Made by a program: the position numbers and the translations under genes. From Ruminococcus sp. (GTDB taxonomy: Bacteria > Bacillota > Clostridia > Oscillospirales > Ruminococcaceae), in assembly GCA_017960805.1 (NCBI GenBank), contig JAGCYM010000023.1, forward strand, positions 107,103 through 146,187: 39,085 bases of DNA. Reading direction: 5' to 3'. Under the pieces are notes generated by a model that was not told the DNA's origin, ran no database searches, and saw only the letters and a list, made by a program, of their open reading frames with translations. Below, piece after piece: positions 29,786 to 36,974 of the stretch (within the stretch, counting starts at the first letter, position 1; each line of letters begins with the position of its first letter).

Positions 29786-32659
29786 ATGAAAAAGATAAAG
29801 AAAATACTAAATTCAGGAATCAGCATCCTAATTGGTGCTTCACTTGCTGCGGCACCTGTTATGGACAAAGGTTTCCTGTTTTCAGTAGGCGCTGATACTT
29901 CGGACGGTACAGTGTTCTACGTTTCTCCTGACGGAAGTGACAATGGTGATGGTTCTCTCGCCTCACCGTTCAAGTCTCTCGAAGCTGCTCGTGATGCTGT
30001 TAGAAAGATAAACGGCAATATGAATGGCGACATCACTGTCTACCTCAGAGGCGGTGACTACCGTATGACTGAACCGGTCGTTTTTGACACACGGGATTCA
30101 GGGAAAAACGGCTATTCCATCAATTACAAAGCATACGAAAATGAAGTACCAGTAATCAACGGAGCAGAAAAGGTAACCGGATGGACAAAGTACAACGATA
30201 AACTCTGGTCCGCGCCGCTCTCACGTACAACAAAGCTCCGTAACCTTTACGTCAATGACCAACGCGCTAATATGGGTAGTGTTCGGGTTCAGTCAAAGGG
30301 TGGTTATGGAAAGTATTCAATCACCGCTGGTCAGGCTGAATGGGCTTGGGATTCCGGAGTAAAGGACGACGGTTCATCCTATGCAAGTAACTCTATGCCT
30401 AAGATTACTTCAAACTTTGATGATCTGGAAATTATAAACGGAACAACATGGAATGAAAACATTGTATGTACACGTGACGTTAAATATGAAAACGGCAATG
30501 TAGTTCTCCTGTATCAGCAGCCTTACGGCTCTATCGCACAGACACCCGGCTGGGGTGCCGGCTTCTCCACGGGCGGAACTCATACTATATATAATGCTTT
30601 CTCATTCGTAGACGAACCCGGCGAGTTCTACTTTGACAAGGCCGCCAAGGTCCTCTACTACTACCCGCGTCAAGGCGATGATATGTCTACGGCTGACGTC
30701 GAAGCTCCTATCGCAGACCAGCTCATCGTTATCGAGGGCAAGAGCACTACCGATCGAGTTGAGAACCTCTCGTTCAGCGGCATCACCTTTGCGAACACGG
30801 ACTATCAGCTTACCGACGTAGCAGGCTCACACGGCAAAACCACTTGTCAGGCTGCTCAGACATACACCGCATTCGCTGATTCAAACTGGCACAACAGGAA
30901 GTACGAGATGGTCGACACTCTTCCTGCTGCTGTTCACGTTCGGAGCGGCAAGAACATCAAGTTCACCAATAACGTTATAAAACATACGGGCGCTGACGGT
31001 ATCTCAATGACGAACGATGTTGTCAGCTCTGAGATAAGCGCCAACTATATCACTGATATCACCTCGAGCGGTATCACTATCGGTCACCCTCAGCACATCT
31101 ACATTGGCGATGCTGCCGGCAACAACCACGAACGCTTCCCCAAGGGCGTAGAGGGACTCTGCACCGATATCCTTATTACGCAGAATATGCTGTATGATAT
31201 CAGCGTCGTTCACGGCTTCGGCGGCTGCGCTGCTATCACCTGCTACTATACAGACTCGGCAAAGGTGCTCAGCAACACCATCGAAAGGACAGCCTACAAC
31301 GGTATCCACATGGGCTGGGGCTGGTGCAACTTCAAGGACAGCAAGACCTCGCTCAACAATATGATATGCTATAACCGTGTTATCAACTGCCTTAATCGTC
31401 TCCACGACAGCGGCGGTATCTACACGATCGGTCAGATGCCCGGAACAAAGATAAACGAGAACTACGTTCAAGGAATCCCAGCGGGCGGTCCCGGAGCTCC
31501 TACCTACGGTCTCCACAATGACGAGGGTACAGCTTACATAGAGGAGCTTGATAACGTCCTCGAGATAAGCCCCAACGTTACATATACCATCAACTGTGAG
31601 GACTACGGTCAGAAGCACCACCTCACGATAAAGCGCACATACGCTACGGTCAACAAGATGGGCAAGAATCCTCCCGACAGTGATATCGACACTCCTATCG
31701 TCGTATCCGATAACGTATGGCCGTTCGAGCAGTACAAGATATGCCTTAACTCGGGCGTTTCCGATGAGAACCGCAAGCTCGTGCCGAGGAGCGTTACCTC
31801 CGCTGCGAACTTCGTCTTCCCTGCAAGCTGCCAGACTACCTGCGGCAGCAAGCTCCCGATACGCAAGGGCGACGGTATCGTCTGGATAGCTCCCGACAAT
31901 ACCACAAACTTCACTGCGGGCGCGACCATGACTAAGGCTTCGACTAACGCCACATCTATAAAGACTCCGACTACAGAGGGCGAGTACCGCATCTACGTCA
32001 CCGACGCAAGCGGCAAGGTGCTCAGCAAGTCCGACCATATCCTCCGCCTTAAAGGTACAGGCTCTATCGACGATGTTATACAGGCTGAGAGATACAGCTC
32101 GCAGAACGGCATAGAGGTCGAGAGCTGTGAGGAAGGCGGTCAGGACGTCGGCTTCATCGAAAACGGCGATTACATCGTCTTCAAGGGAATCGACTTCAAA
32201 GGCGGCGAGGCAAAGTCGGCGGATTTCCGTGTTTCTTCAAACGGCAACGGCGGTACTATCGAGATACGCGTCGGCGGACTTGACGGAACAAAGATAGGCG
32301 AAGTCGAAGTACCCGTAACGGGCGGCTGGCAGACATGGAAGACCGTTACAACTGACATCAGCAACATGACCGGCATTCACGACGTATACCTCGTATTCAA
32401 GGGCGGCGAAAGCTACCTCTTCAATGTCAACTGGTGGAAGCTGAACTTCCCGGAGGGACTCGAGGACGTCATCATCAAGGGCGACCTCAACGGCGACAAG
32501 GTCGTTGATTCGTTCGATCTCATCCTCATCCGCAAGGCGGCTGAAGCAGGCGATGCCGACATCTTCGACGCTGCCGACATCAACGAGGACGGAGCGATAG
32601 ACGCGGACGACGTTCAGCTCCACTCGGATTACATACTGGGAAAAACAAAATCATTCTAA
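29786..32659 (+). CDS. Dockerin-bearing right-handed beta-helix glycosidase (GH141-like), CBM6
   Basis: The 957-residue secreted protein has a signal peptide (~1-36), a right-handed beta-helix domain (~43-740), a CBM6-like domain (~765-885) and a type I dockerin (~895-957). 'YVSPDGSDNGDGSLASPFKS', 'VYLRGGDYRM' and 'GVTWKY'-like segments match the GH141 family, whose known members include alpha-L-fucosidase on rhamnogalacturonan-II and a xylanase. The catalytic residues are not assigned. The dockerin has 'GDLNGDKVVDSFDLILIRKA' and 'ADINEDGAIDADDVQLHSDY'. Codon composition switches near 30550 from AT-rich host style to GC-rich. It is followed by the GH2 gene after 28 bp, so is operonic. Confidence 0.8.
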   Translation: MKKIKKILNSGISILIGASLAAAPVMDKGFLFSVGADTSDGTVFYVSPDGSDNGDGSLASPFKSLEAARDAVRKINGNMNGDITVYLRGGDYRMTEPVVFDTRDSGKNGYSINYKAYENEVPVINGAEKVTGWTKYNDKLWSAPLSRTTKLRNLYVNDQRANMGSVRVQSKGGYGKYSITAGQAEWAWDSGVKDDGSSYASNSMPKITSNFDDLEIINGTTWNENIVCTRDVKYENGNVVLLYQQPYGSIAQTPGWGAGFSTGGTHTIYNAFSFVDEPGEFYFDKAAKVLYYYPRQGDDMSTADVEAPIADQLIVIEGKSTTDRVENLSFSGITFANTDYQLTDVAGSHGKTTCQAAQTYTAFADSNWHNRKYEMVDTLPAAVHVRSGKNIKFTNNVIKHTGADGISMTNDVVSSEISANYITDITSSGITIGHPQHIYIGDAAGNNHERFPKGVEGLCTDILITQNMLYDISVVHGFGGCAAITCYYTDSAKVLSNTIERTAYNGIHMGWGWCNFKDSKTSLNNMICYNRVINCLNRLHDSGGIYTIGQMPGTKINENYVQGIPAGGPGAPTYGLHNDEGTAYIEELDNVLEISPNVTYTINCEDYGQKHHLTIKRTYATVNKMGKNPPDSDIDTPIVVSDNVWPFEQYKICLNSGVSDENRKLVPRSVTSAANFVFPASCQTTCGSKLPIRKGDGIVWIAPDNTTNFTAGATMTKASTNATSIKTPTTEGEYRIYVTDASGKVLSKSDHILRLKGTGSIDDVIQAERYSSQNGIEVESCEEGGQDVGFIENGDYIVFKGIDFKGGEAKSADFRVSSNGNGGTIEIRVGGLDGTKIGEVEVPVTGGWQTWKTVTTDISNMTGIHDVYLVFKGGESYLFNVNWWKLNFPEGLEDVIIKGDLNGDKVVDSFDLILIRKAAEAGDADIFDAADINEDGAIDADDVQLHSDYILGKTKSF

Positions 32660-32687
32660 ATTTTAAGGGAATTTGGAGGTCATTACA

Positions 32688-35600: not shown

Positions 35601-36974
35601 GAGGGCGCCGAGGAGGTTACATGGTACGGCAACGGTCCTGTCGAGACCTTCAACGACAGAAAGACCAACGGCAGAATGGGCGTATGGAACGACAGCGTTT
35701 CCCATATGTTCTACCCCTATATGAAGGCTGACGACACGGGCAACCTCACTGACGTCAAGTGGATAGCTGTTCAGAACAAGAACCAGGAGAATTCGCTCCT
35801 TATCGCAGCAGAAGGACCTGTTGAGGCAAGCGCTCTCCATTTCACTCCCTACGACCTTCAGAAGGCTGATCACCCCTACAAGCTTTCGCCGCGCAAGGAG
35901 ACTATACTCAGCGTGGACTACGGCTCGATGGGTACCGGCTCGGCTACCTGCGGACAGGCGACTCTCGATAAGTACCGCCTGCCTACTTCACGTGCGTATG
36001 ACTGGAGCTACACTATCATGCCCGTTTCTTCAAAGCTGACCGCTCAGGAGCTCTCTGATACTGCGGCTAAGCTCCGCTCCAACGGCACTTCCATCCAGGA
36101 CAAGAGCCAGAACAATCTCGTTGTCCCCGTGACAGGCAGTGCAAAGCTCAAGTCAGGAACGGACGGCAACTCGGTATCGGGAGATGTTACTGTACCTCAG
36201 TGCGATTCTATCGATAAGGCTCTCAGCGGCCACAACTCGTTCACAGTGGAATCCAACTTCGTTCCCACAGGAAACCCGCAGTTCAACATGATCGCCAGCA
36301 AGGGCGACCACGCATTCGGTCTGAGAACTGAGAATAACAAGGTCTACTTCTTCATCCATGCAGGAGGCGAATGGAGATCTGTTGAGTACACAGGCACAGA
36401 CGACCAGTGGCTCGGTAAGAAGCACCAGGTAGCAGGTATTTACGACGCTGAAAATGATATGCTCCGCATCTACTGCGACGGTAAAATAGTTGCAGAGAAG
36501 GCAACAGGCACTACAAGCGGTGTCACCACATCCGGCTACAACTTCACTATTGGTAAGTGCCCTGAGACAAATCGCGGCTCTGCTGCTGATTTCTACGAGG
36601 TAAGAGTATACAGCAAGGCTCTCAGCGCATCTGAGCTCTCTTCGCAGAATACAGCTTCACCTACTTATGGTCCGGATGATAAATGTGTACAGCTCTGGCT
36701 CGATTTCGACAATATTGCTGAAAACATAGAAGAACCTGATGATCCGACACCATCACTGATCGGTGACGCAAATCTGGATGGAAAGGTAACTATCGCAGAC
36801 GCAACTGCTATACTTCAGTCAATAGCCAACCAGGATAAATATGGCCTCAGTGATGAAGCAAAACTCAACGCTGACTGCTATAATCCGGGTGATGGAGTTA
36901 CTGCTAAGGATGCCCTTGCAATCAAGAAACTTGATGCAAATGTACTTACTAAGCTCCCAGAGATTGATGAATAA
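32688..36974 (+). CDS. Dockerin-bearing GH2 beta-galactosidase-like enzyme, LamG
   Basis: The 1428-residue secreted enzyme has a signal peptide (~1-32), the GH2 jelly-roll, Ig-like and TIM-barrel parts, a LacZ C-terminal beta-sandwich (~850-1110), a LamG-like domain (~1164-1325) and a dockerin (~1357-1428). Key residues: '[11 protein letters not shown]' with acid/base E529 and '[12 protein letters not shown]' with nucleophile E598, plus '[12 protein letters not shown]' and 'GFIWDWVDQ', all beta-galactosidase-like. The dockerin '[20 protein letters not shown]' plus '[16 protein letters not shown]' is a Ruminococcus-type variant. ATG 32688 is preferred over TTG 32673, with GGAGG 8 bp upstream. 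Most of the gene is GC-rich; the dockerin end is not. Confidence 0.92.

Follow-up and report, generated by a model that had tools for sequence, protein, structure and literature searches.

Mosaic penicillin-binding-protein genes of pneumococci, in which parts of core genes have been replaced in place by DNA of related species, are a described case of recombination across species borders (PMC8321556). Cross-species hybrid genes have also been reported from hot-spring Synechococcus, where full sweeps appear as troughs of synonymous divergence and were attributed to selection (PMC12755884). A survey of core-genome introgression found gene flow sharply reduced at 2-10% divergence, with Campylobacter named at 85% identity, and very little sign of introgression in Clostridia (PMC9650840). 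Here we describe a two-gene operon for dockerin-bearing glycosidases (GH141 and GH2) in a 39,085-nucleotide stretch of a Ruminococcus genome (GCA_017960805.1, contig JAGCYM010000023.1; the whole stretch is called the window), in which a block of about 6 kb was probably replaced by DNA of a GC-richer species.

The window is the right end of a 146-kb contig (C85) in a genome of 2.57 Mb, 114 contigs and 64% completeness, with a GC content of 0.413 (303 kb sampled in 19 stretches). Its closest matches were Ruminococcus genomes, many of them from rumen or gut samples going by their titles. The comparison set, with one genome per species, included a yak-omasum Ruminococcus metagenome-assembled genome (MAG; L020), R. 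flavefaciens MC2020, YRD2003 (L004), L003, L018, L023 and L005; by their record titles, MC2020 and YRD2003 are strains rather than MAGs.

A GC-rich block across two dockerin genes

The genes, the block and its two segments are as follows.

29786..32659, plus strand: predicted GH141-like dockerin protein of 957 aa, with right-handed beta-helix, CBM6 and dockerin (Pfam GH141_M, Beta_helix, CBM_6, Dockerin_1)
32673..36974, plus strand: predicted LacZ-type GH2 beta-galactosidase with a C-terminal laminin-G-like domain and a group-I-like dockerin (Pfam)
30506..36676, plus strand: donor-type block, the whole putative introgressed tract, delimited by the interval of high third-position GC, a codon model and the end of near-identity to the yak MAG
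30530..31060, plus strand: 5' segment of the block, GC-rich and without a near-identical source (best L003, 86%)
31067..36676, plus strand: main segment, near-identical to the yak MAG and 95.8% identical to MC2020 over 31067-36637

The first-pass annotation of the window, working from hand counts, had proposed a composition block of about 6 kb at 30540..36660. The block is real, and those coordinates proved right within tens of bases. Its GC content was 0.532, compared with a mean of 0.415 (standard deviation 0.028, maximum 0.489) in 395 overlapping 6-kb windows from the 303 kb sampled, an all-N contig (L157) being left out. In the GH141 gene GC at third codon positions (GC3) per 30 codons was 0.23-0.50 up to 30,505, 0.57 at 30,506-30,595 and then 0.53-0.90; in the GH2 gene it was mostly 0.53-0.83, with single internal dips to 0.50 and 0.47, dropped to 0.47 at 36,543-36,632 and was 0.29-0.37 onward. 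The top single high-GC3 interval, 30,506-36,479, had a log-likelihood ratio of 53.8, and 200 shuffles reached at most 11.0. A two-state host/donor codon model was trained on 206 host open reading frames (ORFs), some counted twice because stretch L155 overlaps the first 12.9 kb of the window, and on 45 ORFs of GC-rich relatives. Under two of three switch penalties this model called host sequence to 30,544, donor sequence at 30,545-36,647 and host sequence from 36,648; the laxest penalty also called a 54-bp host-like bit inside the block, at 35,355-35,408. The block is thus sharp and beyond chance, and the plot of GC3 and codon use suggested with the original claim gave a shift that is stepwise, not smooth.

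Within the block the window and the yak MAG differed at 17 sites over 31,067-35,156 (99.6% identity), where the yak contig stops; a second yak contig takes up the match at 36,359 and carries it, with four differences, to 36,676, where near-identity ends. MC2020 was near-identical across most of 31,067-36,637, with patches at ordinary divergence at about 31,780-32,180 and 32,450-33,030 and some shorter ones. At fourfold sites identity to the yak MAG was 1.000 (240/240) in the 3' part of the GH141 gene and 0.974 of 386 sites in the GH2 gene, whereas in ten neighbouring coding stretches it was 0.26-0.38. The piece of GH2 that carries the dockerin, which begins just inside the tract, gave 0.51 of 43 sites. 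The immediate flanks (29,786-30,500 and 37,191-38,872) were 71-79% identical to the seven aligned relatives, the yakB rows being left out for wrong orientation, and neighbouring single genes ranged from 61-62% (APH) to 81-82% (DUF711). Because fourfold sites agree inside and diverge outside, purifying selection on the proteins cannot explain the block. Breakpoints from the comparison with relatives, about 30,506-30,545 and 36,647-36,676, fell near those predicted; both edges lie within coding sequence, and the frames are open across them.

The trees of block and flanks conflict significantly. Both the left-flank tree (29,786-30,505) and the right-flank tree (36,710-38,872) placed the window on a long branch apart from the yak MAG and MC2020, and a grouping of the three was rejected by the approximately unbiased (AU) test (AU 1e-4 and 6e-46, respectively). 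In the main-block tree the window, the yak MAG and MC2020 stood together and the flank-like topology was rejected (AU 5e-115), as was the alternative topology for the laminin-G region alone (AU 0.003). The 530-bp 5' segment alone separated no topology (AU 0.91, 0.15 and 0.11). Near-identity inside, divergence outside and sharp edges together mark the block, its 5' segment excepted, as a probable interspecies recombination tract, and the earlier proposal of homologous recombination from a GC-richer Ruminococcus is supported: near-identical DNA of the donor type was found.

That proposal had a single donor tract in mind, which describes the main segment only. The 5' segment has a donor-like composition and is 79-86% identical to the seven relatives. 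It probably came from an unsampled donor or from an earlier exchange, so that the tract is composite: either one unsampled donor, itself mosaic, gave the whole, or the recent exchange followed an older one.

The first reading had also held that the terminal dockerin stayed host-like. This is so for the dockerin of GH2, which lies outside the block; that of GH141 lies inside it and is of the donor type.

32477..32656, plus strand: GH141 dockerin, donor-type, inside the block (Pfam, 35.9 bits when scanned alone), identical to the yak MAG
36762..36929, plus strand: GH2 dockerin, host-like, outside the block (Pfam, PDB 5m2o, GC3 0.29-0.37)

All 26 fourfold sites of the GH141 dockerin match the yak MAG (26/26), and the entry it matches, PDB 5lxv (WP_009985128), differs from that of the GH2 dockerin. 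The latter reached 22.9 bits with Pfam Dockerin_1, exactly the cut-off, when the C-terminal piece was scanned alone, and was not listed at E<=0.001 when full-length GH2 was scanned with Pfam; it matched the Group I Dockerin of PDB 5m2o with an E of 2.5e-11. On these matches GH2 is predicted to carry a C-terminal dockerin.

Probable replacement in place and its alternatives

The interspecies recombination reading is supported by these sequence comparisons, and we give a probability of about 0.84 to replacement of the operon in place, through homologous recombination, by DNA of a GC-richer relative. A low-GC (about 41%) Ruminococcus would have taken up GH141-GH2 operon DNA from a relative whose loci have about 53% GC, and a double crossover within conserved parts of the operon would have replaced the resident copy. 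The recipient would have kept its upstream region, the signal peptide and the ~240 initial codons of GH141, together with the end of GH2 that bears the dockerin. The remainder of GH141 (catalytic helix, CBM6 and dockerin) would be foreign, as would almost the whole of GH2, with its catalytic part and laminin-G. The nearest known sequence differs at 17 sites over 4,090 bp, so that the main part would be recent; at least four more species appear to have exchanged the same operon, either in large part or as single modules. Selection may have aided the spread, and the contig is presumed to be correctly assembled; that selection kept the host GH2 dockerin is only a guess.

The operon is flanked by an APH-fold gene on one side and SufC/SufD on the other, and MC2020, L003 and L018 have the genes in the same order, DUF711 ... 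APH, GH141, GH2, SufC, SufD. Since the genes stand at the orthologous place, replacement rather than insertion is indicated; and since one copy of the operon was found in the window genome and the edges lie inside open frames, homologous recombination is favoured. Transformation would be the most plausible route. ComEC and DprA were found in 7/8 clade genomes searched, which makes transformation plausible for the clade, uptake by the host itself being a conjecture.

Several points weigh against this explanation. No near-identical relative of 30,530-31,060, and so no donor for the first ~550 bp, was found among the genomes searched. The host assembly is fragmented, and on its right the block is followed by just 2.4 kb of host-like sequence up to the contig end. 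A second genome of the host species, which could have confirmed the junctions independently, was not found. Recombination across 71-79% identity exceeds the range usually reported. ComEC and DprA were not found in the host genome (64% complete), for which incompleteness is the simplest reason. To the left of the operon YRD2003 and the yak MAG have other neighbours, and their homology to the window begins at 28,762.

The same fragmentation and incompleteness, and the single host assembly in which the host's former sequence at the joins is unseen, would fit a metagenome-assembly chimera, in which the assembler switched from the low-GC host to the operon of a GC-rich Ruminococcus living alongside it and then returned. 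At its right end the tract matches the yak MAG exactly over 68 bp (36609-36676), and the yak assembly itself broke within the same gene (35156/36359), showing how shared sequence can trouble assemblers. Such a chimera, however, requires two joins, and in the 200 bp around the left edge no exact match to any of the seven aligned relatives exceeds 26 bp (YRD2003, 30512-30537), in flanks as divergent as those given above. It also leaves the extra unmatched 5' segment unexplained; the bin gave no further copy that could be the native one, and a like cross-species tract, that around laminin-G, occurs between the named strains MC2020 and YRD2003. We regard a chimera as unlikely, though it is the foremost rival. 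Carriage by a mobile element or an illegitimate insertion is another reading: given a correct contig, DNA has certainly moved between species, and the different left neighbours in YRD2003 and the yak MAG would fit. Against this stand the position of the operon in MC2020, L003 and L018, the edges inside open frames and the single copy. No phage record matched in the vehicle search, the plasmid search gave only six records with 2-3% matches to GH2 genes, and a viral-contig search with GH141 as the only query gave no match; there is thus no sign of cargo on a phage, plasmid or viral contig. No element ends, integrase or direct repeats were present among the annotated genes of the window, where no tool search for repeats was made. 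An insertion of this kind seems very improbable to us.

An old or intrinsic step, due to expression-linked codon choice or domain composition without any transfer, was examined in orthologues, as had been proposed with the first reading. For GH141, 21 of 26 Ruminococcus-type loci were used (L014, L017, L019, L025 and L028 were left out as partial or with a late start) and the gene was split at codon 240 by codon number, not by alignment; the difference in GC3 between codons 1-240 and the rest was 0.269 in the window and at most 0.055 in the orthologues, so that the internal step was present in 0/21. For GH2 (n=8) the C-terminal fall in GC3 was 0.35 in the window; 5/8 orthologues shifted by about 0.06 or less either way, and the other three (L018, L010 and L012) showed a mild fall of about 0.09-0.12, which is what can be said for an intrinsic step. 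Fourfold sites that are identical or nearly so to another species inside the block and saturated outside refute it, and we give it next to no weight. Hardly any more credible is the reverse direction, in which the GC-rich species would have received the DNA from the low-GC lineage: identity alone cannot give direction, but the codon use of the block fits the GC-rich set (mean log-likelihood ratio +0.18 to +0.22 per codon), whereas host genes have a mean of -0.33, with 11/206 host ORFs above 0 (some ORFs counted twice).

Probable exchange among other species and the genomic setting

The GC-rich species are mosaics of one another at the GH141-GH2 locus. Among five genomes (the window, the yak MAG, MC2020, YRD2003 and L003), 10/10 pairs shared an operon tract of at least 200 bp at >=97% identity, compared with 0/18 pairs involving L018, L023 or L005. 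Two tracts surround single modules.

31982..32457, plus strand: tract around CBM6, 98.7% identical between YRD2003 and the window or the yak MAG
32081..32444, plus strand: CBM6 module of GH141 (Pfam)
36174..36627, plus strand: tract around laminin-G, 98-99% identical and common to the window, MC2020, YRD2003, L003 and the yak MAG (from 36359)
36216..36638, plus strand: laminin-G module of GH2 (Pfam)

In the CBM6 tract, fourfold identity between the window and YRD2003 was 0.98 of 54 sites. For the laminin-G tract the next genome after those five was only 84% identical. Between MC2020 and L003 70/70 fourfold sites of this tract agree, compared with 0.63 in SufC and 0.57 in SufD, and between MC2020 and YRD2003 the figures were 0.96 of 69 sites, 0.62 and 0.55. 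A paralogous source of the laminin-G tract, by conversion within a genome, was rejected, the tract having one place per genome (at most 5 candidates were scored per genome; split matches and one 22-bp match were set aside). The background of the yak MAG is nearest YRD2003 (fourfold 0.75 in GH95 and 0.74 in GH97, compared with 0.61 and 0.60 to MC2020), whereas its block is nearest the window and MC2020, indicating that the yak MAG, too, exchanged DNA here. Since MC2020 and YRD2003 are titled strains, the mosaicism is seen outside metagenome assemblies too. These patterns suggest, at somewhat less than even odds, that the operon circulates as a common resource among rumen and gut Ruminococcus, in which at least five species repeatedly overwrite parts of each other's copies, CBM6 and laminin-G move as near-exact units under selection across 21-29% flank divergence, a level at which homologous recombination between bacteria is expected to be almost closed, and the host dockerin or expression signals are kept at the edges in some cases.

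A second dockerin pair in the window served as control.

9043..15857, minus strand: control dockerin pair (GH95, GH97), host composition

This pair was 75-79% identical to MC2020, YRD2003, L003 and the yak and horse MAGs, with fourfold identity of 0.28-0.39 to the same species; L005 has no orthologue and was not counted. In its region 2/10 valid pairs had tracts of at least 200 bp (MC2020-L003, 430 bp; YRD2003-yak, four), none of them involving the window; five horse rows of this comparison were left out for wrong orientation. The left-flank control gave 0/6 pairs with tracts. The 430-bp tract of MC2020 and L003, at >=97%, lies around their GH95/GH97 pair (loci L185 and L183). Cross-species exchange is thus probably not limited to the GH141-GH2 operon; a hotspot at this locus only is weakened as an idea, exchange being concentrated there and not confined to it.

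Three other GC-rich stretches of the host genome were considered as tracts, and none was comparably near-identical in ten clade genomes. Positions 5000-11000 of L162 (contig C25) are a GC-rich island, with 1-kb windows up to 0.52 and ATP-grasp, transglutaminase and AstE/AspA-like genes; long pieces were confined to G019, one at 78% over 3.9 kb and the rest at 71-79%, and pieces of ~100 bp at 91-97% in six genomes. The start of L168 had matches in 9/10 genomes, with long pieces at 65-87%. The start of L150 (1-4500), which is the left end of the contig that holds the window, had short matches in 7/10 genomes, up to 97% over 218 bp; this 218-bp piece matches the yak MAG.

GH141 and GH2 form an operon-like pair with 13 bp between them. 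The GH141_M match was partial (58-156 of 156; 33.0 bits, cut-off 27), the Beta_helix match had 29.0 bits (cut-off 25.9), and a PDB relative is BT_1002 (5mqp; E 5.5e-38). With a GH141 domain and a beta-helix, the product of 29786..32659 is a predicted glycosidase of family GH141. GH2 has 1433 aa counted from TTG 32673, ATG 32688 being the likelier start; it matched NCBIfam beta_gal_Bga2A with 896 bits, under the cut-off of 999, and PDB 6s6z and others.

29674..29814, plus strand: stretch upstream of GH141 and its first codons, on the host side; exact runs shared with other species reach 41 bp

These runs, shared with several species, precede coding sequence that is diverged, and are either a conserved promoter/leader or a further exchange edge. 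DUF711 and its neighbours sit elsewhere in YRD2003 and in the yak MAG; with the differing left neighbours, this indicates that the neighbourhood of the operon was rearranged in that sub-lineage. The last ~150 bp of the contig (38934-39085) have a 97% copy in contig C57 of the window genome, occur at about 81-92% in at least 10 relatives and gave no Rfam match. They resemble what we take to be the end of an IS200/IS605-type element, which may have broken the assembly.

Comparison with known systems

If the contig is right, the operon offers a clean, datable homologous replacement between bacteria with synonymous sites saturated in the neighbouring genes, and its junctions are exact enough for tests in strains or reads. 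It would suggest that certain plant-fibre enzymes, and their binding modules, are under common selection in several gut species. Among the literature matches listed there was no report of cross-species exchange of such dockerin-enzyme genes. The closest known system for the dockerins is the set of dockerin groups of the R. flavefaciens cellulosome (PMC5301203); by sequence, the two match solved dockerins, 5lxv for GH141 and 5m2o for GH2.

As in the pneumococcal genes (PMC8321556), parts of genes would have been replaced in place by the DNA of a related species; here, in contrast, the genes encode secreted dockerin glycosidases for plant fibre in a gut commensal, and the flanks are only 71-79% identical. 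The cross-species hybrid genes resemble those of Synechococcus (PMC12755884), the present comparison having one genome per species. As in core-genome introgression, high-identity fragments are shared between species on a diverged background, although the immediate flanks differ here by 21-29%, and the case would fall in Clostridia, which that survey describes as showing very little introgression (PMC9650840). The class of mechanism is known, and the divergence crossed is unusual.

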